DNA of 36,506 nucleotides from Lysobacterales bacterium (GTDB lineage Bacteria; Pseudomonadota; Gammaproteobacteria; Xanthomonadales; Wenzhouxiangellaceae). The notes under the pieces are model-generated. The model searched no databases and was not told the DNA's origin. It worked only from the letters and a program-made list of their open reading frames with translations. Location: assembly GCA_022360675.1 (NCBI GenBank), contig JAKSCJ010000081.1:1-36506 (forward strand), written 5' to 3'. The position numbers were made by a program, and so were the translations under genes. Of the stretch, positions 4,140 through 15,865 are shown one piece after another (position 1 is the stretch's first letter; each line of letters starts with the position of its first letter).

Positions 4140-4400
4140 GCCTTTGCATCAAAGGAGTGCAGCAGCGTGGGTCTAGTAGGACGTGAGCACCAATCCAAAA
4201 GCTGCTGGCTCTGAGGGTGGTTTGCTCGCTTAGGCGCAGATATAACGGTGACCCCCAACGAAAACAAGATGATCGCCGACAACTTACCGCAACGAACCCC
4301 GCGTTTTAACTTGTTTGCGAGAAGAATAGAGACTAATGCCGCAAGAGACCATGAAAATGGATATCAGCGGCCTTTCGCATGCGGTTTGGACACACTGCAT

Positions 4401-4409
4401 TGCTACAAT
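4401..4409 (+). promoter_or_regulatory. Candidate extended -10 promoter of the opp operon
   Basis: TGCTACAAT is an extended -10 element (TGn followed by TACAAT). The predicted start near 4416 leaves a leader of about 30 bases before the ATG at 4446. No good -35 box is visible. The rest of the 306-bp gshA-opp gap (4140-4445) holds nothing else I can support; the open frame extending upstream through it is not needed by the protein. Confidence 0.45.
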
Positions 4410-4445
4410 GCCGCACATCTGAGATTTGTTTGGTGGACCAAAACC

Positions 4446-5993
4446 ATGGCATCGCATATGCGTATCTTCTTAATCATACTGCTATTTTGTTGGCTTAGTT
4501 GCGATGCTTTAGCAGCCACAGTAAAGCGTGGCCTAGGCCCCGAGCCCGATTCACTAGACCCTCATCGAGCCCAAGGCTTATCGGCTTTAAATGTGGCGCG
4601 CGATCTATATGAAGGGCTCACTACCTTAGATGCCAAAGGGCAAATCCAAGGTGGTGTGGCGCAAGAATGGATGGTGCACGATGGCGGTTATCGTTACGAG
4701 TTTATTTTGCGCAAAGATGCCCGTTGGTCCGATGGCAGTCCAGTAACAGCCACCGACTTTGTACGTGGCTTACGGCATGCGTTGATGCCATCAACGACTG
4801 CACCTTATGCGGGCTTGCTGGATATCATTCATAACGCCCGCGGTGTGCGCCGGGGTGAGCTGCCTGAATCGAGCTTGGGTGTGAAAGCCTTAGGCATTAA
4901 TCGTTTACAAATTGTCTTAGAAAGCCCCAGCGCTTTGCTGTTACCGGTGTTAACGCATCCGGTGAGTTATCCACGACAAAAATCCTTCGGGCGCGCTTAT
5001 AACGGTGCCTTTGTTATGGCCGAGCGCGTTGCGCAATCTCATTTATTGTTAAAACCCAATCCGCACTTTCATAGTGCTGCAAGCTTACGTTTAGATGCGC
5101 TGATGTGGGTGGTGAGTGAAGACAACAATAGCGAACTCTCGCGTTATCGTGCGGGTGAATTACACATTACCGAAACAATTCCGGTGGGGCGCTATAACTG
5201 GTTGAAGAAAAACCTGCCCGACGATTTACGAGTGAGTCCTTATTTAGGGACTTACTATCTAGCGTTTAATTTGCGTCATCCAAGCTTTAAAGATCAGCTG
5301 AAACTAAGGCGTGCATTGAGTTTAGCGATTGATAGAGAAACCCTGACGCGTGTAGTTACTTCCTCGGGCGAGCAACCCGCCTTTGGCTTGGTTGCACCCG
5401 GTTTAGAAGATTACGCCTACCCAGAGCAGGTAGAGCAAACCATGACGCAGCAAGAGCGTTTAGGTTTAGCCCAAGCGCTCTATCGACAGTCGGGCTATGG
5501 TGAAGATAACCCATTACGTATAAGCTTACGCTATAACACCTCAACCCTTCAGCGGCGTATTGCAGCTGCCATTAGTGCGATGTGGCGCGAATATCTGGGG
5601 GTGGTGACAGAACTACATAATGAGGAATGGAAGGTATTCATCAATAGCCGCCGCCAAGGGAGCAATACCCAAGTGGTGCGAGGTGGATGGATTGCCGACT
5701 TGGCCGACCCGGTATCGTTTTTAGAGCCCTTTGCGGCTGATAGCAGTTTGAACTATACCGGCTTCAACGATACGCAGTACGACCAATGGCTCAGGCGTGC
5801 AGCCAATGCTGAAAATCCGTTTCAGCGTGGCGATGCATTGCGCCGGGCTGAGGCACGTTTGTTGTCGCAGCAGCCCATCATTCCTCTCTATTACTATGTG
5901 TCCAGGCATTTAGTTAAGCCGGGCGTGCGAGGGTATGTTGATAACGTGATGGATATTCACTTAAGTCGGTATTTGTCGGTGGCGGAACCATGA
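4446..5993 (+). CDS. oppA: Oligopeptide ABC transporter, first periplasmic binding protein (OppA-like)
   Basis: SBP_bac_5 (cluster C) peptide-binding protein that delivers oligopeptides to the permease. The frame is open back to 4248, but the ATG at 4446 is preferred: it is preceded by GGTGGA, lies just behind a promoter candidate, and puts a signal peptide (MASHMRIF, hydrophobic core, ALA/A) at the N-terminus. ATG 4458 is an alternative. The 515-aa product has the family pattern PEPDSLDPHRAQG at the mature N-terminus, ARWSDGSPVTATDF, a central LGTYYLAFNLRHP, and RRALSLAIDRE. It lacks a usable lipobox, so it is probably soluble, unlike its neighbour. It overlaps the next gene by 4 bp (ATGA). 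The two proteins are clear tandem paralogues. Ligand specificity cannot be read from sequence. Confidence 0.92.
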   Translation: MASHMRIFLIILLFCWLSCDALAATVKRGLGPEPDSLDPHRAQGLSALNVARDLYEGLTTLDAKGQIQGGVAQEWMVHDGGYRYEFILRKDARWSDGSPVTATDFVRGLRHALMPSTTAPYAGLLDIIHNARGVRRGELPESSLGVKALGINRLQIVLESPSALLLPVLTHPVSYPRQKSFGRAYNGAFVMAERVAQSHLLLKPNPHFHSAASLRLDALMWVVSEDNNSELSRYRAGELHITETIPVGRYNWLKKNLPDDLRVSPYLGTYYLAFNLRHPSFKDQLKLRRALSLAIDRETLTRVVTSSGEQPAFGLVAPGLEDYAYPEQVEQTMTQQERLGLAQALYRQSGYGEDNPLRISLRYNTSTLQRRIAAAISAMWREYLGVVTELHNEEWKVFINSRRQGSNTQVVRGGWIADLADPVSFLEPFAADSSLNYTGFNDTQYDQWLRRAANAENPFQRGDALRRAEARLLSQQPIIPLYYYVSRHLVKPGVRGYVDNVMDIHLSRYLSVAEP

Positions 5994-8032
5994 TCGGTGG
6001 TGCTTACCGCCTGTTCCCCCTGATTTTATTGTTGCTCTCTGCCTGTGGTGGTGGCGATGCGCCCCAACAACAGCCAGAGCCATTGTCGCGCCCGGTGCCG
6101 GTGGTACGGGTGGCGGCCGATGCACAACCCAGTCCACAGGATTTGGCCGCCCAGCAAATCTTACGCCGTGGCAATGGTGAAGAGCCTGAAACGCTAGATC
6201 CCCATCGCGCCCAAGGCGTGCCCGCCAATAATATTCTGCGTGATTTGTTCGAAGGCTTAACCATTGAGCTGCCCGATGGCCAAGTGGCACCGGGTACAGC
6301 TGAACATTGGGATATCAGCCGCGACGGTAAGCGCTATACTTTTTACTTACGCGATGATGCGCGTTGGTCTAACGGCGATGTGGTGACTGCTGAAGACTTT
6401 GTCTTTGGCTTGCGCCGTAGTGCCGATCCGGCGACCAGCTCGCCGGCCGTACAAGTGCTCTCGCCCATTGTGAATGCCCACGAGGTGTTTGCCGGCACCC
6501 TGCCCGCCGATTCGCTCGGGGTGCGGGCTTTGAATGATCACACGGTGCAAATCGATCTCGTTGCACCCACGCCTTATTTCCTGAGTCTGCTCACCCTGCC
6601 GCCAGCATATCCGGTGCATCGCCCCTCTTTGGCGGCCCATGGCGATCAATACTCACGCCCTGGCAACTTGGTGAGTAACGGTGCTTTTGTTCTGTCGGAA
6701 TGGGTGATTTATTCGCACATCTTATTGAATCGAAATCCTTTTTATTGGGATTACGAGAAGATCTACCTGGATCAGGTCTACTATTACCCCTTCGCCGATC
6801 AAAATGCCGAATTAGCCCATTACCGGGCGGGTGATTTGGACTGGACGTACGAAGTACCCAGTAGCCAATACGATTGGTTAGAGCAAAAACTGCCCGATGA
6901 GCTGTCGGTTACACCTTGGTTAGGCACTTATTATTTGGGCTTTAATCTGACCCGGGCGCCCTTCGAGGCTTTGCCTGAATTGCGTGTGGCGCTGAGTTTG
7001 GCGGTGGATCGTGAATTACTTGTGGATAAAGTGACCCGTTTTGGCGAGTTACCCACATTCCACTTGGTGCCCAAGGGTATTCCGCGCTATGAGTCGCCTG
7101 AATACGATTACGAAAACTGGACCCAGGCCGAACGCGAAGCCGAAGCCAAGCGCCTGTATCAGCGTGCTGGATACGACGAGGAATTTCCGCTTCGCATAGA
7201 GTTGCGTTACAACACCAGCGCCAATCATAAGAAAATTGCCTTGGCGGTGGCGGCGATGTGGCAGCAGGTTTTGGGCGTGGAAACCGTGTTGATTAACGAA
7301 GAATGGCGCGTGTTTCTACAAAATCGCCAACAAGGACGCATTACCGAGGTGTATCGTGGCGGCTGGATTGGTGACTACAACGACCCTTACGCCTTTTTGG
7401 AAATCTTCCACTCCCAACACCGACAAAACGACTCAGGTTATGAAAACCCCACCTTCGACCGTCTGTTAGAACGCATTGGCACCGAGCGTATTCCTTCGCG
7501 CCGCATGCGTTTATTGGCCGAGAGTGAGCGGGTATTGCTGCAAGACTTACCACTCCTACCGCTCTACACCTATGTCACCAAGCGTTTGGTTTCGCCCCGT
7601 GTACAAGGTTGGCAGCCCAATGTGATGGATAACCACCTCAGCCGCTGGATGTACATTGTGCGTACCGAAGATGAGCTGAGCCAGGCTGATCGAGAAGCGA
7701 ACGAACAAGCCCGGCGCACCACTGAATCCGAGCTTGTGGATACTGTGGATGAAACTGTGGACGTGCTTGTGGATAAGTCTTTGGATAACCTAGGCGAAAT
7801 AGCTGTAGATACGGTAACTAAAGGTGTTCAGCGAGACCCCATGGCAGGGGATAACCCTGCGGTGAGCGCTGTGGATAAGTCCATGGAAAGTGCTGATGAA
7901 GTCCAGATTCAGCGAGCCGAAATGGACGCTGAAGTTGAAGCAGAGCCAGAGCCAGAGTCTATTGCTGGAGCGGCTGAAGCGCAAGAATTGAGTCCGGAAC
8001 TTAGACCTGAGCGCATGGAGGAGGATCGATGA
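5990..8032 (+). CDS. oppA: Oligopeptide ABC transporter, second binding protein (lipoprotein) with acidic C-terminal tail
   Basis: A second SBP_bac_5 protein in tandem with the first: EEPETLDPHRAQG aligns with PEPDSLDPHRAQG, and LGTYYLGFNL and LRVALSLAVDRE recur. A lipobox, LLSAC, ends a signal peptide at about residue 19, followed by GGGD and a Pro/Gln-rich linker, so it is predicted to be a lipid-anchored periplasmic protein. The binding fold ends near HLSRWMYIV (about residue 555). The last roughly 120 residues form an extension I do not recognise, rich in Asp, Glu and Val, with four-residue repeats of the VDET/VDVL/VDKS kind. The corresponding DNA repeats a DnaA-box-like 9-mer (see findings). 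At 680 aa it is well above the usual 500-560. Its stop overlaps the oppB start (ATGA). Confidence 0.92.
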   Translation: MIGGAYRLFPLILLLLSACGGGDAPQQQPEPLSRPVPVVRVAADAQPSPQDLAAQQILRRGNGEEPETLDPHRAQGVPANNILRDLFEGLTIELPDGQVAPGTAEHWDISRDGKRYTFYLRDDARWSNGDVVTAEDFVFGLRRSADPATSSPAVQVLSPIVNAHEVFAGTLPADSLGVRALNDHTVQIDLVAPTPYFLSLLTLPPAYPVHRPSLAAHGDQYSRPGNLVSNGAFVLSEWVIYSHILLNRNPFYWDYEKIYLDQVYYYPFADQNAELAHYRAGDLDWTYEVPSSQYDWLEQKLPDELSVTPWLGTYYLGFNLTRAPFEALPELRVALSLAVDRELLVDKVTRFGELPTFHLVPKGIPRYESPEYDYENWTQAEREAEAKRLYQRAGYDEEFPLRIELRYNTSANHKKIALAVAAMWQQVLGVETVLINEEWRVFLQNRQQGRITEVYRGGWIGDYNDPYAFLEIFHSQHRQNDSGYENPTFDRLLERIGTERIPSRRMRLLAESERVLLQDLPLLPLYTYVTKRLVSPRVQGWQPNVMDNHLSRWMYIVRTEDELSQADREANEQARRTTESELVDTVDETVDVLVDKSLDNLGEIAVDTVTKGVQRDPMAGDNPAVSAVDKSMESADEVQIQRAEMDAEVEAEPEPESIAGAAEAQELSPELRPERMEEDR

Positions 8033-8961
8033 TTGCCTATGCTTTGCGCCGTCTTTTAGGTGCCATTCCCACCTTGTTGATGTTGATCACCCTGGCGTTT
8101 TTCATGATTCGTTTGTCGCCCGGCGGCCCTTTCGATAATGAACGGACCTTACCGCCGGAAATCGAAGCGAATCTCAATGCGCGCTATCACCTAGACGAGC
8201 CTTTGGCTATGCAGTACGCGCGCTATTTGGGCAATGTCTTGCGCTTCGATTTCGGGCCTTCGTTTCAGTACAAAGACTGGACGGTAAACGAACTCATCAG
8301 CAGCGGTTTTCCGGTCTCGGCCACTTTGGGTTTGCTGGCCATGGCCTTGGCTTTGGTGGTGGGTTTAAGCGCGGGTACCTATGCGGCCCTCAGGCAAAAT
8401 AGCTGGATTGACTATGGCGTGATGACCATCGCCATGACGGGTATTTCGATTCCCACTTTTGTGGTGGCACCGCTGTTGATTTTGGTGGTGGCCTTATCGC
8501 TGGGCTGGTTACCCGCCGGTGGTTGGGACTGGACGCCAGCGCGCATGGTGATGCCGGTGGTAACACTGGCCTTACCGCTGATCGCCTATATTTCGCGCCT
8601 GATGCGTGCCAGCTTAATCGAGGTGCTACATAGTAATTTTATTCGCACCGCGCGCGCTAAAGGTTTGAGCGAGCGCCAAGTGATTTTTCGCCATGCCTTA
8701 AAGCCCGCGGCTTTACCGGTTATTTCCTTTTTAGGCCCCGCCATCGCGAGCGTGCTTACCGGCTCGGTGGTGGTCGAGCGGATTTTCACCGTACCAGGTT
8801 TGGGTAGCCATTTTGTGCAGGGGGCGCTGAACCGAGATTACACCTTAGTGCTGGGTGTGGTGGTGTTTTACGGCATGTTGATTATCGTGCTGAATTTTTT
8901 GGTGGATTTAATCTACGCTTGGTTAGATCCTCGCATTCGCTATGACCGGAGGTGGTCGTGA
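8029..8961 (+). CDS. oppB: Oligopeptide ABC transporter permease OppB
   Basis: Inner-membrane permease of the BPD_transp_1 family, 310 aa, which with OppC forms the translocation channel. It shows the N-terminal helix AYALRRLLGAIPTLLMLITLAFFMIRLSPGGPF typical of OppB/DppB (in pieces: RRLLGAIPTLL, FFMIRLSPGGP), six predicted membrane segments, and the cytoplasmic ATPase-contact loop around RTARAKGLSERQVIFRHALK. The ATG overlaps the stop of the second binding protein by 4 bp and is served by an AGGAGG in the end of that gene. The stop overlaps the GTG of oppC. Confidence 0.96.
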   Translation: MIAYALRRLLGAIPTLLMLITLAFFMIRLSPGGPFDNERTLPPEIEANLNARYHLDEPLAMQYARYLGNVLRFDFGPSFQYKDWTVNELISSGFPVSATLGLLAMALALVVGLSAGTYAALRQNSWIDYGVMTIAMTGISIPTFVVAPLLILVVALSLGWLPAGGWDWTPARMVMPVVTLALPLIAYISRLMRASLIEVLHSNFIRTARAKGLSERQVIFRHALKPAALPVISFLGPAIASVLTGSVVVERIFTVPGLGSHFVQGALNRDYTLVLGVVVFYGMLIIVLNFLVDLIYAWLDPRIRYDRRWS

Positions 8962-9869
8962 GTAGCAAAGCCGAGCTCAGTTCCAAAGCCACCGTCTCGC
9001 TGCCCTCGGTGGTGCCGCGTAATTACGGATTATGGTCGGAGGCCTGGGAGCGCTTGCTGCGAAACCGCGCGGCCGTGGTGGGTGGCGTGTTACTGCTGTT
9101 GATCACACTGCTGGTTATTTTTGGCCCTTGGTTAAGCCCGTTTGATCATGTGATTCCCGACTGGGATCGCGCCGGCCAGCCGCCGGACGCCGAATCCAGC
9201 CACTGGTTTGGCACCGACGCCATTGGTCGCGATTTATTTGTACGTACCCTGATGGGTGGGCGGGTGTCGTTATTGGTCGGCATTTTGGCCACCTTAGTCA
9301 GCCTGATTATTGGTGTGGCCTATGGGGCGGTGGCTGGTTATTTTGGCGGCAAACTGGATAACACCATGATGCGCGTGGTAGACGTGCTGTACGCCATGCC
9401 CTTTATGTTTTTCGTGATCTTGCTGATGGTGGTGTTCGAGCGCAATATTTTCTTGGTGTTCGTGGCCATCGGCGCGGTGAATTGGCTCGATATGGCGCGT
9501 ATCGTGCGCGGCCAAACCTTGAGCTTAAAAAATAAAGAATACGTGCAGGCAGCCCAAGCTATTGGTGTGCCGCCTAAGCAAATTATCCTGCGTCATATCG
9601 TGCCGAATTTAATCGGCGTGGTCATTGTGTACGCCACGTTAACCGTACCACAGGTGATTTTGGTGGAGTCGTTCTTAAGTTTCTTAGGCTTAGGAGTGCA
9701 AGAACCCATGACCAGCTGGGGGGCATTGGTGAACGAAGGCGCACAAGAAATGGAAACCGCGCCTTGGGCTTTGGTGTTTCCTGCTGTGTTTTTGGCGCTG
9801 ACTTTATTTAGCCTCAACTTTTTAGGTGACGGTCTGCGCGACGCCCTAGACCCCAAAGATCACTATTAA
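8958..9869 (+). CDS. oppC: Oligopeptide ABC transporter permease OppC
   Basis: Partner permease of OppB, 303 aa from the chosen start. It has an N-terminal cytoplasmic stretch, WERLLRNRAAVVGGVLL as the first helix, a periplasmic loop with HWFGTDAIGRDLFVR, and the EAA-type loop VQAAQAIGVPPKQIILRHIVPN that docks on the ATPases. The frame is open from a GTG at 8952, but the GTG at 8958 is preferred because GGAGG (8948-8952) sits 5 bases before it and it couples to the oppB stop (GTGA overlap). Confidence 0.95.
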   Translation: MSSKAELSSKATVSLPSVVPRNYGLWSEAWERLLRNRAAVVGGVLLLLITLLVIFGPWLSPFDHVIPDWDRAGQPPDAESSHWFGTDAIGRDLFVRTLMGGRVSLLVGILATLVSLIIGVAYGAVAGYFGGKLDNTMMRVVDVLYAMPFMFFVILLMVVFERNIFLVFVAIGAVNWLDMARIVRGQTLSLKNKEYVQAAQAIGVPPKQIILRHIVPNLIGVVIVYATLTVPQVILVESFLSFLGLGVQEPMTSWGALVNEGAQEMETAPWALVFPAVFLALTLFSLNFLGDGLRDALDPKDHY

Positions 9870-9886
9870 AGGGGATCACTACTCCT

Positions 9887-10852
9887 ATGGCCTTGCTGGA
9901 AGTTCGAGATTTAATGGTTTCCTTCGCCACACCCGAAGGTGAGGTGCATGCGGTCAACAGCGTCGATTTCGACGTGGAACCCGGTGAAGTCATGGCCATT
10001 GTGGGGGAATCGGGATCAGGCAAATCGCAAACTGCCATGGCCTTATTGGGCTTACTCTCGGAGAACGGCCAAGCCAGAGGCTCCGCTTTATTTGATGGTA
10101 AAGATTTATTAAAGCTTAGCCAAAGCGAGCTGAATCAATATCGCGGCTCGCAGGTGGCGATGATCTTCCAAGATCCGATGACGGCGTTAAATCCTTACCG
10201 CACCGTGGGCTCGCAGCTGCGCGAAGTGCTCACTTGTCAGCGTCATATGGAACGCCGTCAAGCCAATCGCGAAGCCTTGGAGATGCTCGAACAAGTGCGT
10301 ATCACCGATCCGGAGCGGCGCTTACAGCAGTTTCCCCATGAATTATCCGGCGGCATGCAGCAACGGGTGATGATCGCCATGGCATTACTGGCGCGCCCGC
10401 GTTTACTCATTGCCGACGAACCCACCACCGCTTTAGACGTTACGGTGCAGGCCGAAATCTCGGAATTGCTGCGCGATTACCAACGCCGTTACGAAACCGC
10501 CATTATGTTGATCACCCACGACTTAGGCGTGGTGGCCGGTTTATGCGAGCGAGTTTTAGTGATGTACGGTGGGCGTGTGATGGAATACGGCGATGTCCGT
10601 GCCATTTATCATCAGGCCGAACACCCCTACACCGCTGGTTTGTTGCGTTCGGTACCGCGTTTGGATCGCTTAGACGACGAGGAACTGCACGGTATTCCGG
10701 GTAATCCGCCCAATTTGTTGGAATTACCCACCGGCTGCCCGTTCCAGGAACGCTGCCAAGTGGCCATCGAGCGCTGTAGCAGCCTGCCCTCGCTTACCCG
10801 TGCCAACCACGGCGGCTTACGCCGTTGTCATCTTGAAGGAGCCATTGAATGA
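9887..10852 (+). CDS. oppD: Oligopeptide ABC transporter ATPase OppD
   Basis: One of two ATPases that energise peptide import. The 321-aa protein has Walker A GESGSGKS (residues 40-47), the Q-loop in MIFQDPMTALNP, signature LSGGMQQRV, Walker B LLIADEPTTALD and an H-loop ITHDLGVV. The C-terminal oligo_HPY region carries four cysteines (GCPFQERC, ERC, RRC). This type of cysteine cluster is reported to hold a 4Fe-4S centre in a related mycobacterial Opp transporter; whether it does here is inference. The 4-bp ATGA overlap with oppF indicates translational coupling. Confidence 0.95.
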   Translation: MALLEVRDLMVSFATPEGEVHAVNSVDFDVEPGEVMAIVGESGSGKSQTAMALLGLLSENGQARGSALFDGKDLLKLSQSELNQYRGSQVAMIFQDPMTALNPYRTVGSQLREVLTCQRHMERRQANREALEMLEQVRITDPERRLQQFPHELSGGMQQRVMIAMALLARPRLLIADEPTTALDVTVQAEISELLRDYQRRYETAIMLITHDLGVVAGLCERVLVMYGGRVMEYGDVRAIYHQAEHPYTAGLLRSVPRLDRLDDEELHGIPGNPPNLLELPTGCPFQERCQVAIERCSSLPSLTRANHGGLRRCHLEGAIE

Positions 10853-11892
10853 GCGCACCGGTGCTAACTGTCGATGGCTTAAGTGTCGATTACCAAGTAC
10901 ATATTGGTGGTATTTTTAAACGCCAACACCTCACGGTGCACGCCTTACAAGACGTGAACTTCGAGTTGTATCGGGGCGAAACCCTGGGTATTGCCGGTGA
11001 ATCGGGTAGTGGTAAATCGACCCTGGCGCGTACGGTTTTGGCCTTACAGCCTGCCCGTTCGGGTCATGTGGTGTGGCGTGGTGATGATCTCTTAGCTATG
11101 GATCGTGAGGTATTGCGGGCCAAGCGCAAAGAAATGCAGATGATCTTCCAAGATCCGCTGGGGTCTTTGAATCCGCGTTTAAGTGCGGGCGAAATTATCG
11201 CCGAGCCGCTGCGTACGCATTACCCGCGGATGGCGCGTTTACAGATTCACGAGCGCGTGATTGGCATGATGAAGATGGTGGGCCTATCGCCTGAGCACGT
11301 GAACCGTTATCCCCATGAGTTTTCTGGCGGTCAGTGCCAGCGTTTGGGTATTGCGCGTGCTTTGGTGCTGAATCCACGTTTGCTGGTGTGCGACGAACCC
11401 GTAAGTGCACTGGATGTATCGATTCAGGCGCAGATTCTGCATCTATTAAAAGATCTGCAGAAAAAACTGCAATTATCGATGATTTTTATCGCCCACGATT
11501 TAAGCCTGCTGCGCTATGTGAGTAATCGCATCATGGTGCTGTATCTGGGGCAGATTATGGAAATTGGCGATCGCGCCAGTTTGTATCAAGCGCCACGCCA
11601 CCCCTACACTCGTGCCCTGATTCAATCGGTGCCCATTCCCGACCCCGAGCGCGAGCGTCGCGATCGCGAGCGTGGCCACCGTGGCGCTATTCCCTCGCCG
11701 TTTATGCCGCCTTCAGGCTGTTTATTTCACCCCCGTTGCCCGTTTGCCATTGAGCGTTGCAAGATCGAACGCCCCAGCCTGCGCCCTGTGCGCGAAGGTC
11801 ATGCCGCCTGCCATCGGGTCGAAGAATTACATCTGGAACGAGATATCGCAGCGCCAGCAGCAAGCGGCGATTCCGATACTGCCGAAGCGTAA
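10849..11892 (+). CDS. oppF: Oligopeptide ABC transporter ATPase OppF
   Basis: Second ATPase of the importer, 347 aa. It has Walker A GESGSGKST (50-58), MIFQDPLGSLNPR around the Q-loop, signature FSGGQCQRLGIAR, Walker B LLVCDEPVSALDVS and IAHDLSLLR. The C-terminal oligo_HPY part has the cysteine set GCLFHPRC...ERC...AAC, matching that of OppD. It is the last gene of the operon. No convincing terminator follows; a 9-bp inverted repeat across the stop codon (11881-11889 with 11924-11932) has a long loop and no T-run. Confidence 0.95.
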   Translation: MSAPVLTVDGLSVDYQVHIGGIFKRQHLTVHALQDVNFELYRGETLGIAGESGSGKSTLARTVLALQPARSGHVVWRGDDLLAMDREVLRAKRKEMQMIFQDPLGSLNPRLSAGEIIAEPLRTHYPRMARLQIHERVIGMMKMVGLSPEHVNRYPHEFSGGQCQRLGIARALVLNPRLLVCDEPVSALDVSIQAQILHLLKDLQKKLQLSMIFIAHDLSLLRYVSNRIMVLYLGQIMEIGDRASLYQAPRHPYTRALIQSVPIPDPERERRDRERGHRGAIPSPFMPPSGCLFHPRCPFAIERCKIERPSLRPVREGHAACHRVEELHLERDIAAPAASGDSDTAEA

Positions 11893-12755: not shown

Positions 12756-12786
12756 AAAAAAGGCAGCGTAATCCGCTGCCTTTTTT
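12756..12786. terminator. Bidirectional rho-independent terminator
   Basis: A 13-bp perfect stem (12756-12768 with 12774-12786) with a 5-base loop, A6 before and T6 after. It separates the lipoprotein gene from the convergent DUF2269 gene. Confidence 0.92.
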
Positions 12787-12825: not shown

Positions 12826-13293
12826 TTATACCCAAGTGGGCTTAAACATCATCAGCCCGTAAATGGCGATCATCGCCGTAAAAGCGGGAATCCCTAAATA
12901 AAACCAGTAACGCGCATCGCGCCAGTATTGCGCGGGCAGTGGCTTGGCTGTTGCCCAAGCCTGAGCCGAAACCCGGCGCATACGTAGTTGTAAGGCCACC
13001 ACCGGCAGCCAACACAAACCCGCCAAACCATATAAACACAAAGCGATGATTAACCACGGTGGAAAATCGGTCATGCCGAGCTTTTGCATTAAGAACATGC
13101 CACTTAAGGGCTGAATTACGATGGCGGGTGTGGTGAAAACCCAGTCGGCCAAGACCACCACGCGATTGGTATGCGCGATACTGGCCACATCGCCGCTTTG
13201 ATCGGCACGCCATTTGAAAAAAGCCGTACCTAAGCCGGTGCCAAATAATATGGTGGCGCTGAGAATATGAATAAGTTTTAGCATTAAATACAT
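12826..13293 (-). CDS. DUF2269 family integral membrane protein
   Basis: A 155-aa protein with four predicted membrane helices. The N-terminus MLKLIHILSATILFGTGLG is the mark of DUF2269, whose biochemical role is unknown. Its start overlaps the end of the SDR-DoxX gene by 10 bp, so the two are transcribed and probably translated together. The pair presumably belongs to one membrane-associated process, under the operator at 14711-14728. Confidence 0.88.
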   Translation of the reverse strand: MYLMLKLIHILSATILFGTGLGTAFFKWRADQSGDVASIAHTNRVVVLADWVFTTPAIVIQPLSGMFLMQKLGMTDFPPWLIIALCLYGLAGLCWLPVVALQLRMRRVSAQAWATAKPLPAQYWRDARYWFYLGIPAFTAMIAIYGLMMFKPTWV

Positions 13294-14663
13294 GCGCGGG
13301 CCTCCGCGGTTAAGGCTTTTGAATCCTCAGTGGCTTGTAGCCAATGCAATAACAAAAAGCTGGCGGCAAATAAGGGAATGTTTTTACTGATGGGCCCGAA
13401 AGGGTGCAGCCATAGCTCGGGCAGAAACAAAGTGATGAGCACGCTGTAGAGCAACATCAGCATAAGTGAGAACTTCAGCGTGCAGTGGGGGCGGCAATTC
13501 AACAATAACGCGGTACCGATCACCGCATCTAAGGCGGCAGCTGCGATGGTGAGCGGTATCTGCAAGGCGCTGGGTATAGCTAGACTCGCCAGCCAGCGTG
13601 CGCTTTCGGATAAGGGAAAACCCAGCACCGAAACCCAGGCCGTCCACAGCCATAGCATCGCCAAGCTATACCGTAAGAAGGCAAAATGTTGCTGCCAACG
13701 TTGCTGATGCCGTGCTTCGCGATAGGCTTTCGTGTTTAAGCTTGCGGCTACGCTTTTGGGCATCCAGCCGAAATGCTGCACCATGGTTTGAGCATTAGCC
13801 ACGTTTCCTTTTTGTAGCATCAACAACATATCGGCGCTGATCAAACCCTTGCTCTTAAAGGGCTTTCCCCTTAAACGCTTTCCCCAACTGCCCAATAGTG
13901 CATCGACCCAGCACCACAAACGATGGACAGCGCGAAAAGGCAGCTTGATAACATAAGCTGCCGAAGCATTTTGATCTTGGGCTTGGCGAAAGCATTGCAG
14001 AATTTCGAGCAGACTAAGTGCCTTAGGGCCCACCAGTTCAAAGGTGTTGCGTACCGGCCATTTGGATTCCACGCTCTGAATCATCGCTTTCACCACATCG
14101 TCGATATCGATGGCTTGCAATTGCTGTACACCACCATCAATCAACGGCCACACAGGCCAAGCGGCTACACGCTGTAGGCGTTCAAAACTTTCTCCCCCCG
14201 GTCCTATGATCAGCGATGGTTTAAAGATGGCCCAATCCAGCAAGCGCTGGCTTAAATCGGTGTCGGCCCTTGCTTTACTGCGTAAAAACTCGGTTTCTGC
14301 ATCGACTTTCGCCCCCAATGCCGAGAGTTGAACTACCCGCTTGACGTTTGCTTGCTCACAGGCATCGAACAAGGCTTGCGGCGCGCGTTCATGCACTTGC
14401 TGATAACTGTGCCCTGGGTGCTCGTGGATAATGCCCACGGTGTTAATAACCACATCAATGTTGTGCAGCAAGGGCAGCCAGTGCTCAGCGGTGTGGTATT
14501 CGCTGAAATCCACTTGCTGCCAACGGATAGCGCTGTGTTCTGGACTGGCTGGGTGTAGAGGAAAATGGTGGATACAGGCAAGCACTTGATGTCCACGCTC
14601 GTGTAACTTGGCCATGAGGTGGCGGCCAACAAAACCTCGAGCTCCGGTGAGCAAAATGCGCAT
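13284..14663 (-). CDS. NAD(P)-binding SDR-like protein fused to a DoxX-like membrane domain
   Basis: A 459-aa two-part protein. Residues 1 to about 300 are an atypical SDR (NmrA/NDUFA9-like) Rossmann domain: nucleotide loop TGARGFVGRHL at residues 6-16, INTVGII, and QLSALGA with the usual serine. The active-site motif reads EFLRSK where relatives have YxxSK, so the catalytic tyrosine is a phenylalanine, and the later RPS is KPS. The C-terminal part (about 330-450) has four predicted membrane helices of the DoxX-like kind. Fusions of this type next to DUF2269 occur in other proteobacteria; the reaction is unknown to me. The ribosome site CAGGAG lies 8 bases before the ATG. Confidence 0.87.
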   Translation of the reverse strand: MRILLTGARGFVGRHLMAKLHERGHQVLACIHHFPLHPASPEHSAIRWQQVDFSEYHTAEHWLPLLHNIDVVINTVGIIHEHPGHSYQQVHERAPQALFDACEQANVKRVVQLSALGAKVDAETEFLRSKARADTDLSQRLLDWAIFKPSLIIGPGGESFERLQRVAAWPVWPLIDGGVQQLQAIDIDDVVKAMIQSVESKWPVRNTFELVGPKALSLLEILQCFRQAQDQNASAAYVIKLPFRAVHRLWCWVDALLGSWGKRLRGKPFKSKGLISADMLLMLQKGNVANAQTMVQHFGWMPKSVAASLNTKAYREARHQQRWQQHFAFLRYSLAMLWLWTAWVSVLGFPLSESARWLASLAIPSALQIPLTIAAAALDAVIGTALLLNCRPHCTLKFSLMLMLLYSVLITLFLPELWLHPFGPISKNIPLFAASFLLLHWLQATEDSKALTAEARACI

Positions 14664-14710: not shown

Positions 14711-14728
14711 TTTCTGTAACAACAGAAA
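14711..14728. promoter_or_regulatory. Operator A of the GbsR-like regulator, upstream of the SDR-DoxX gene
   Basis: An inverted repeat TTTCTGT (14711-14717), spacer AACA, ACAGAAA (14722-14728), 48-65 bases upstream of the start of the SDR-DoxX gene. It has the same arms and spacing as the site at 15209-15226. Binding by the nearby regulator is inferred. Confidence 0.72.
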
Positions 14729-14737
14729 TTACCAGTT

Positions 14738-14769
14738 AAAAAAAGATCGCTCCCGCCTTATTGAGCGGG
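14738..14769 (-). terminator. Candidate terminator of the small membrane-protein gene
   Basis: Read on the minus strand: CGCTC (14763-14767) pairs with GAGCG (14748-14752), followed within three bases by T7 (14738-14744). An alternative pairing CCCGC/GCGGG competes. The stem is short, so the call is moderate. Confidence 0.55.
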
Positions 14770-14770
14770 C

Positions 14771-15181
14771 TTATTGTGCGCTGTGCGTTTCACGCTGATG
14801 AAGTGCTTCTGTAGCCGCCGCAAGCATTGAGGCTGGTAATACGGGTTCTGGCTTGGGCGTGTTGATCGATTTCGCGATCACCCGGCCAATGGCGGCCAAG
14901 GCGATGAAGTCACCGAGCAATATGCGAAATAAACCGTCTTTCAACTCGCGGGCGTGATTACTAATGTGGACGCTATCGGTGGGGGTGAAGTAAATCACCA
15001 GTAACAGCGGCGAAATCACCAACATAAGCTGGGTAAAGCGAATCCAGAACATAGAGCGGGTGGCCGTGCCACAGGTTTCGATCAGGATTTCATTCAGCAA
15101 GGGCAGTAGCAGACGAATCAAAATAAAACTAACGCCGATGCTGGTGATGATGAGAATGAGCAGTAAGTTGACGCTGGCCAT
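14771..15181 (-). CDS. Small membrane protein of unknown function
   Basis: A 136-aa protein with three likely membrane segments (an N-terminal LLLILIITSIGVSFILI type, LMLVISPLLLVIYF, and a weaker one around LLGDFIALAAIGRVI) and a polar C-terminal tail of about 35 residues. I do not recognise a family. The ribosome site AAAAGGAA sits just before the ATG. It lies alone between two terminators and has the regulator's operator 28-45 bases upstream, so it is a predicted member of the regulon. Confidence 0.82.
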   Translation of the reverse strand: MASVNLLLILIITSIGVSFILIRLLLPLLNEILIETCGTATRSMFWIRFTQLMLVISPLLLVIYFTPTDSVHISNHARELKDGLFRILLGDFIALAAIGRVIAKSINTPKPEPVLPASMLAAATEALHQRETHSAQ

Positions 15182-15208
15182 ATTCGTTCCTTTTAAACGT
15201 TGCGGTAA

Positions 15209-15226
15209 TTTCTGTAAATACAGAAA
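15209..15226. promoter_or_regulatory. Operator B of the GbsR-like regulator, upstream of the small membrane-protein gene
   Basis: An inverted repeat TTTCTGT (15209-15215), spacer AAAT, ACAGAAA (15220-15226), 28-45 bases upstream of the ATG at 15181. It is identical in arms and spacing to the site at 14711. Confidence 0.73.
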
Positions 15227-15237
15227 TAATTGATGGT

Positions 15238-15267
15238 AAAAAAAGCCATGTTTAAAGCCATGGCTTT
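15238..15267 (-). terminator. Rho-independent terminator of the GbsR-like regulator gene
   Basis: A 9-bp stem, AAAGCCATG (on the minus strand from 15267) with CATGGCTTT, an 8-base loop, then a T7 run on the minus strand (15238-15244). It lies directly after the regulator stop. Confidence 0.85.
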
Positions 15268-15277
15268 CGCTGTGCGT

Positions 15278-15805
15278 TTACTTTTTTCCCAAAATACTCT
15301 GCACTTTCGAGCCCAGTTGGATGAGCTTAAGTAGTGTGGATTTGGGTAACACACTCACCTGCTGGTGCCAGCGATCTAAGGTTTCCATGAATTCCATTAA
15401 GGTTTCCATGCGTGCTTTGACGCTGTCGGGCGTGTTTTTGTCTTCAGCGCTTTCCAATACACATTGGCGTAACACCGTCATGGTGGGGTCCAGTTCGCGC
15501 TGCTTGCGACCTTCTAAAATGGTTTGAAACAGCTCCCAGGGGTCTTTTAAGGTCTCGAAGTGATCGCGCCGATCCCCTAATAAATGCACCACCTTGACCA
15601 GCTTCCACGATTGCAGTTCTTTAATGCTGGTGCTGACGTTGGAGCGGGCAACGCCCAAGGTTTCGGTAATTTCTTCGGCGTTGAGTGCTTGTTCCGATAA
15701 AAATAACAAGGCATGAATTTGCGCCACGGTGCGGTTAACGCCCCAGCGGGTTCCCATTTCACCCCAGTGCAGAATGTATTTTTCCATCACGGGCGTCAGT
15801 TTCAT
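15278..15805 (-). CDS. GbsR/MarR family transcriptional regulator
   Basis: A 175-aa winged helix-turn-helix protein. The N-terminus (MEKYILHWGEMGTRWGVNRTVAQIHALLFLSE, read in parts) and the recognition helix ITETLGVARSNVSTSIKELQSW fit the GbsR subgroup of MarR regulators, which act as dimeric repressors on palindromes. The C-terminal half is helical and probably dimerises. A long palindrome overlaps its own promoter, and two short copies lie before the next two downstream units, so negative autoregulation and control of those units are predicted. The ligand is unknown; some GbsR relatives respond to choline. Confidence 0.9.
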   Translation of the reverse strand: MKLTPVMEKYILHWGEMGTRWGVNRTVAQIHALLFLSEQALNAEEITETLGVARSNVSTSIKELQSWKLVKVVHLLGDRRDHFETLKDPWELFQTILEGRKQRELDPTMTVLRQCVLESAEDKNTPDSVKARMETLMEFMETLDRWHQQVSVLPKSTLLKLIQLGSKVQSILGKK

Positions 15806-15811
15806 ACCTTG

Positions 15812-15849
15812 TTTCCAGTAATTTCTGTTGATTCAGAAATTACTGGAAA
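15812..15849. promoter_or_regulatory. Operator C: long palindrome over the regulator's own promoter
   Basis: A 16-bp perfect inverted repeat, TTTCCAGTAATTTCTG (15812-15827) with its complement at 15834-15849, around a 6-base centre TTGATT. It contains the shared TTTCTG/CAGAAA core of the other two operators. It starts 7 bases upstream of the regulator ATG (15805) and covers the predicted -10 box. Confidence 0.82.
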
Positions 15850-15865
15850 TTACATTAAAGGTCAA
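15837..15865 (-). promoter_or_regulatory. Sigma70 promoter of the GbsR-like regulator
   Basis: On the minus strand TTGACC (15865-15860) and TAATTT (15842-15837) are exactly 17 bases apart. The -10 lies inside the palindrome at 15812-15849, so a bound repressor would block RNA polymerase. Confidence 0.68.

Follow-up and report, generated by a model that had tools for sequence, protein, structure and literature searches.

We found that a 36,506-nucleotide stretch of DNA from a Lysobacterales bacterium (hereafter, the window) very probably encodes a GbsR-type autorepressor that acts at three sites, one of them over its own promoter and the other two in front of genes for membrane proteins. The three sites share a palindromic core that is found exactly nowhere else in the genome, and the arrangement around the regulator gene is conserved in distant relatives. 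The type of regulator is known; this branch of it is not described in the papers searched.

Three inverted repeats precede three transcription units

A previous reading of the window from its sequence alone (the sequence-only reading) had pointed to shared inverted repeats 5' of three minus-strand units, and we confirmed both the coordinates and the cores of these repeats. All three palindromes fall within 1.13 kb, and the genes, all on the minus strand, run from the regulator through the small membrane protein and SDR-DoxX to DUF2269 in the direction of transcription. Operator A (14711-14728, minus strand, TTTCTGTAACAACAGAAA) lies 5' of the SDR-DoxX gene, and operator B (15209-15226, minus strand, TTTCTGTAAATACAGAAA) lies 5' of the gene for the small membrane protein. 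Both are exact instances of TTTCTGT-N4-ACAGAAA, as had been proposed. Operator C (15812-15849, minus strand; core 15822-15839, TTTCTGTTGATTCAGAAA) lies over the regulator's promoter and has the form TTTCTG-N6-CAGAAA, with one mismatch in the 14-bp core. This core lies midway in a longer inverted repeat whose two 16-nt arms (15812-15827 and 15834-15849, separated by 6 nt) complement each other without a mismatch, which makes the site a 38-bp dyad overall. The sequence-only reading was right that site C covers the regulator's -10 box and wrong to describe it as a 16-bp palindrome.

Within the window alone, the repeats are not striking: if three mismatches are allowed, there are 3 matches, and 17 of 100 shuffled sequences also reach 3. 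This window-only chance test was not decisive, and we used genome-wide and cross-genome tests instead. When we scanned the whole 3.91-Mb genome, which the earlier reading had suggested as a check, the motif was not scattered: the exact 12-bp core (TTTCTG-N6-CAGAAA) was present only at sites A, B, and C. With one mismatch there were 7 cores, versus 6 for a reversed control pattern, and these 7 sites are mostly within open reading frames and lack the operator flanks.

The regulator gene, its promoter, and the terminators

The regulator (15278-15805, minus strand) is a GbsR-type protein of the MarR family with 175 amino acids, a winged helix at about residues 24-80, and a single cysteine (Cys115). 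It matches Pfam MarR_2 above the cut-off (E = 1.4e-9) and PDB entry 1ku9 (Mj223; E = 3.9e-10), and the similarity of its winged helix to those of GbsR and Mj223 places it among the GbsR-type MarR proteins. Its match to the NCBIfam model for CudC (E = 3.9e-14) has just 52.8 bits against a cut-off of 218 bits and is below threshold.

The regulator's promoter (15837-15865, minus strand) consists of a -35 box, TTGACC (15865-15860), a 17-nt spacer, and a -10 box, TAATTT (15842-15837), which sits in the right arm of site C. The orthologues have TTGACA at the position that matches this -35 box, and in them, too, the operator overlies the regulator's -10 box. At operators A and B, a search by eye found neither a canonical -35 box nor TTGACA at the spacing that C has. 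The DUF427 gene 5' of the regulator has no match in the orthologous loci, so we consider it to be outside the unit.

Each unit was said to end in its own terminator, and this held, with hairpins of differing strength. An intrinsic terminator 3' of the regulator (15238-15268, minus strand; -14.3 kcal/mol, z = -3.6) has a strong hairpin and seven T's (15238-15244), and the bidirectional terminator 3' of DUF2269 (12756-12786, minus strand; -21.9 kcal/mol, z = -5.4) is also strong. The hairpin 3' of the small membrane gene (14738-14769, minus strand; -10.6 kcal/mol, z = -1.6), with seven T's at 14738-14744, is weaker and is a probable terminator.

The membrane-protein genes

The small membrane protein (14771-15181, minus strand) has 136 amino acids, three helices, and an invariant Cys37-Gly38 pair (model pLDDT 83). 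Its orthologues are 40-65% identical and have the same position in the locus. It belongs to no Pfam family, and a fold search gave no usable match. The next gene (13284-14663, minus strand) encodes a 459-amino-acid protein in which an NDUFA9-like SDR domain (Pfam NAD_binding_10, E = 5.3e-15) is fused to a DoxX_3 membrane domain (E = 1.7e-20; 73.9 bits versus a curated Pfam cut-off of 25). Residues 5-255 of the protein, across the Rossmann domain, match the 39-kDa (NDUFA9) chains of complex I in PDB by sequence (E down to 2.6e-18). This gene overlaps by 10 nt with the gene for a four-helix membrane protein of family DUF2269 (12826-13293, minus strand; E = 5.2e-53; 179.6 bits versus a curated cut-off of 28; model pLDDT 90). 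For DUF2269, the best Foldseek hit had E = 0.53, and many of the rows were cytochrome oxidase subunit III; we dropped a fold assignment because VIA-align returned generic four-helix bundles, with designed proteins on top. Neither DUF2269 nor the small protein had a characterised homologue among its matches.

Across the aligned orthologues, every protein of the locus has an invariant or near-invariant cysteine: Cys115 in the regulator, Cys37 in the small protein, Cys94 in DUF2269, and Cys102 in the SDR protein. The papers on DUF2269 that we found do not address its function, and DUF4166, a family that is often encoded nearby in relatives (see below), appears in none of the papers searched. A table of the response of A. 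vinosum to pyrite has one DUF2269 gene as down (-2.12) and lists none of its neighbours.

Elsewhere in the window (4248-11892), the open reading frames can be read as two oligopeptide-binding-protein-like genes in tandem, with genes for two permeases and two ATPases after them; together they apparently form a single ABC transporter operon in which the binding protein is doubled.

The operators and genes are conserved in orthologous loci

We collected 43 orthologous loci (398 kb in total) by protein, not by motif; a few pairs are near-copies, so the 43 are not independent. Allowing one mismatch, the palindrome is present before the regulator in 38 of the 43 loci (the counterpart of operator C) and just after the regulator in 32 of the 43 (the counterpart of operator B), with a single match elsewhere and none for the reversed pattern. 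Operator A has no counterpart in these relatives. The sites and the genes of the proposed compact regulon are conserved, but three operators are not the general arrangement: relatives have two, one before the regulator and one just after it. A profile of the 38 upstream sites extends beyond the core to TT(c)AGTAATTTCTGT-N4-ACAGAAATTACTGAA, with an invariant G at +23. The distance between the operators mostly tracks the length of the regulator gene, which gives no support to looping between them.

Orthologous loci retain the repeats as well as the genes, which is the outcome that the sequence-only reading had asked about. At least 14 gammaproteobacterial loci have the regulator followed by the small membrane protein, SDR-DoxX, and DUF2269 in that order, and further loci have the same order minus the small protein. 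DUF4166 often comes next, although the window's own genome has no DUF4166. In more distant members (Kiloniellales and others, Verrucomicrobiota), the regulator is mostly still preceded by the operator; this holds for Alphaproteobacteria and for most of the Verrucomicrobiota loci. The genes downstream are then other SDR genes, accompanied by either DUF4166 or a thiol-disulfide oxidoreductase of the DCC1-like type. The regulator's orthologues are 74-82% identical, while the membrane proteins of the loci are only about 33-65% identical. The regulator was absent from all 36 genomes of the same family that we examined, so its distribution is patchy.

The motif also co-occurs with the regulator. Among 274 genomes of the class, 16 have a close regulator, 18 have the exact 14-bp motif, and 11 have both. 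In other words, the motif is in 11 of 16 genomes with the regulator versus 7 of 258 others (p about 1e-11, or more precisely about 9e-12, Fisher exact test). The other 5 of the 16 lack the exact motif, and those that we examined carry near versions of it. The exact motifs in class genomes that lack a match to the regulator (for example, G090, G219, and G309) look like chance occurrences, as their flanks differ and no searched gene is near. In genome G097, one exact motif occurs twice, on contigs C492 and C530 (L085 and L119), with identical flanks and no searched gene adjoining; perhaps this is a repeated element.

Two of the class genomes (G236 and G094) have an additional operator on another contig, before a gene for a TIGR01777-type SDR. 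In G094, this operator (L118, position 2571) is 66 bp from the start of the SDR gene; in G236 (L117, position 2790), it precedes a small membrane ORF plus the SDR gene. As predicted sites, these remote operators independently support the idea that the regulator acts on SDR genes in trans, and they raise the possibility of a wider regulon in such relatives.

The third operator appears to be special to this genome

The small membrane gene and the SDR gene lie almost end to end in relatives, where they form one operon and no palindrome intervenes. In the window, the small membrane gene is followed first by a terminator and operator A and only then by SDR-DoxX. The third operator thus appears to be special to this genome, with the ancestral operon having been split there. 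The gene upstream of operator A and the gene upstream of operator B end in the same 12-mer (AAACGCACAGCG; 14779-14790 and 15268-15279), and each of the downstream intergenic stretches consists of the 12-mer, then a hairpin, seven T's, and the operator. Aligning the two stretches gives a score of 74, versus 45 +/- 5.7 for shuffled sequences, and the operator itself contributes part of this score. Because the 12-mer is shared by both gene ends, duplication is suggested as the origin of operator A, and it is plausible from the sequence that the first intergenic stretch was the one copied.

An A/T tract (seven T's or A6T3) lies at -16 to -10 from the TTTCTG of the downstream operator in nearly all of the 32 loci that have one. 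In the relatives it mostly occurs without a good hairpin; the window's tracts (15238-15244 and 14738-14744) form the U-runs of the hairpin terminators. This conserved tract may be a promoter element or a bending element.

Proposed mechanism and alternatives

By homology with the characterised repressors CydE and CioR, we infer that the regulator binds these sites and represses. Each of the TTTCTGT-N4-ACAGAAA operators would be occupied by one dimer or by two adjacent dimers. At site C, the bound regulator would cover the -10 box and hold its own level low, and at operators A and B, it would repress the SDR-DoxX/DUF2269 operon and the small membrane gene. A signal that frees the repressor would then lead to the production of a module in the membrane: an NDUFA9-like SDR that would bind NAD(P) and is tethered by DoxX, together with DUF2269 and the three-helix protein. 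A self-repressed membrane regulon that is linked by the repeat had been proposed before, and the uniqueness of the sites and the conservation of the loci support it, with binding as a prediction.

The NDUFA9-like SDR, DoxX, DUF2269, and (elsewhere) the thiol-disulfide oxidoreductase make a role in redox or respiratory stress at the membrane our best guess for the module, albeit a tentative one. As for the signal, we would guess that it is perhaps a thiol event at the single, clade-specific Cys115; by analogy with CioR, it could instead be a metal or a respiratory signal. A bolder reading, which as a whole seems rather unlikely to us, is that of a separate GbsR subfamily spanning Gammaproteobacteria, Alphaproteobacteria, and Verrucomicrobiota, in which Cys115 is a thiol/redox switch and the operator is a double dyad, its two CydE-like halves lying 18 bp apart. 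It would control a new membrane redox enzyme that comprises the NDUFA9-like SDR-DoxX protein, DUF2269, and the three-helix protein, joined in relatives by DUF4166 and the DCC1-like oxidoreductase.

The downstream operators might instead gate elongation, with transcription starting at the regulator promoter and the bound repressor serving as a roadblock or as an aid to termination (one operon with two gates). The A/T tract would fit this: nearly all loci have it 10-16 nt ahead of their downstream operator, and it coincides with the terminator U-run in the window. However, the tract has no good hairpin in most relatives, and in G236 and G094 the SDR genes behind the remote operators have no regulator gene ahead of them, so we view gating as improbable. 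It is also quite improbable that the regulator activates at A and B, where there is no clear -35 box, by aiding RNA polymerase, and represses only itself, at C. TTGACA is indeed conserved before the regulator's site and not before the downstream sites, which have the A/T tract at a fixed distance. But the palindrome opens with the same TAA/TTA-TTT, the would-be -10 box, at both places, which implies that a bound protein blocks the polymerase, and CydE and CioR are repressors. An osmoprotection regulon, as for GbsR and OpuAR, with a regulator that senses choline or glycine betaine, is suggested by the nearest NCBIfam model (the choline regulator CudC); given the low CudC score (52.8 versus 218 bits) and that neither the window's locus nor the orthologous loci examined contain a transporter or choline gene, we consider it very unlikely. 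Finally, the palindromes are short and AT-rich, and their number in the window could be reached by chance at three mismatches, but it is hardly credible that they are mobile or structural repeats, or sites for an unrelated protein, that lie beside a MarR gene by chance, as they are unique in the genome, have fixed positions around the regulator across phyla, co-occur with it, and contain the CydE half-site.

Comparison with known systems

The sequence-only reading was essentially right about the locus; what it missed was the wider conservation and the link to CydE. It had described a regulon of unknown purpose, yet there is a tie to known biology: the group to which the regulator belongs is sister to that of CydE and CioR, which repress cytochrome bd. 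CydE, from Alishewanella sp. WH16-1, is a GbsR-type autorepressor of cydEAB whose footprint covers TATTTCAGAAATTTCTGAAAGTTCA (PMC6096048). Like our regulator, it belongs to this family and is encoded first in its cluster, and its site (TTTCAGAAATTTCTGAAA) uses the same TTTCTG/CAGAAA half-site (PMC6096048). Unlike our regulator, CydE controls cytochrome bd, and its half-sites are back to back (CAGAAA-TTTCTG). The window's operators have TTTCTG-N6-CAGAAA and not the CydE-type arrangement, TTTCAGAAA-N0/1-TTCTGAAA, which cydA-linked regulators in the same order do carry. From its sequence, the extended operator can be read as two CydE-like dyads 18 bp apart, hence possibly as a site for two dimers. 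The regulator's neighbours are the membrane protein, SDR-DoxX, and DUF2269 rather than cydAB or cioAB, and this genome's cydA is on another contig with no such operator near it. In a tree that included cydA-linked regulators (but left out CydE and CioR themselves), a clade of ten rows, the cydA-linked ones among them, separates with 100/99 support, and the window's regulator lies elsewhere. Cys115 is present in 47 of 51 members of the window's clade versus 0 of 11 in the cydA clade (with L113 counted in the latter), and the recognition helix differs from that of the cydA-linked regulators at residues 53 (A/S) and 60 (S/G).

CioR of Chromobacterium violaceum is also GbsR-type; it binds and represses its own cioRAB promoter and is induced by cyanide (PMC11837568). 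Its target is a cytochrome bd quinol oxidase, and SDR-DoxX/DUF2269 genes are not described there (PMC11837568). GbsR and OpuAR of Bacillus are local repressors of the same MarR subfamily, but their ligands are choline or betaine and their targets are osmoprotectant genes (PMC6207618). A survey of GbsR proteins described a group of 80 that were linked to neither cytochrome bd nor osmostress and whose function was often unpredictable (PMC6207618). We found no earlier description of the present system in the literature searched, which included only a minority of the subscription journals.

Among solved structures, the best match of the SDR domain is NDUFA9, an atypical SDR that is the 39-kDa accessory subunit of complex I. 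Unlike NDUFA9, the SDR here is fused to DoxX and is encoded in a small regulon away from complex I genes. The system gives several widespread membrane families without an assigned function (DUF2269, DoxX_3-SDR, DUF4166, and DCC1-like) one common, predictable switch, and the function of these families becomes testable via whatever releases the repressor. It also offers a natural shift of operator arrangement between sister groups of repressors, with back-to-back half-sites in CydE and TTTCTG-N6-CAGAAA here, paralleled by fixed changes in the recognition helix.
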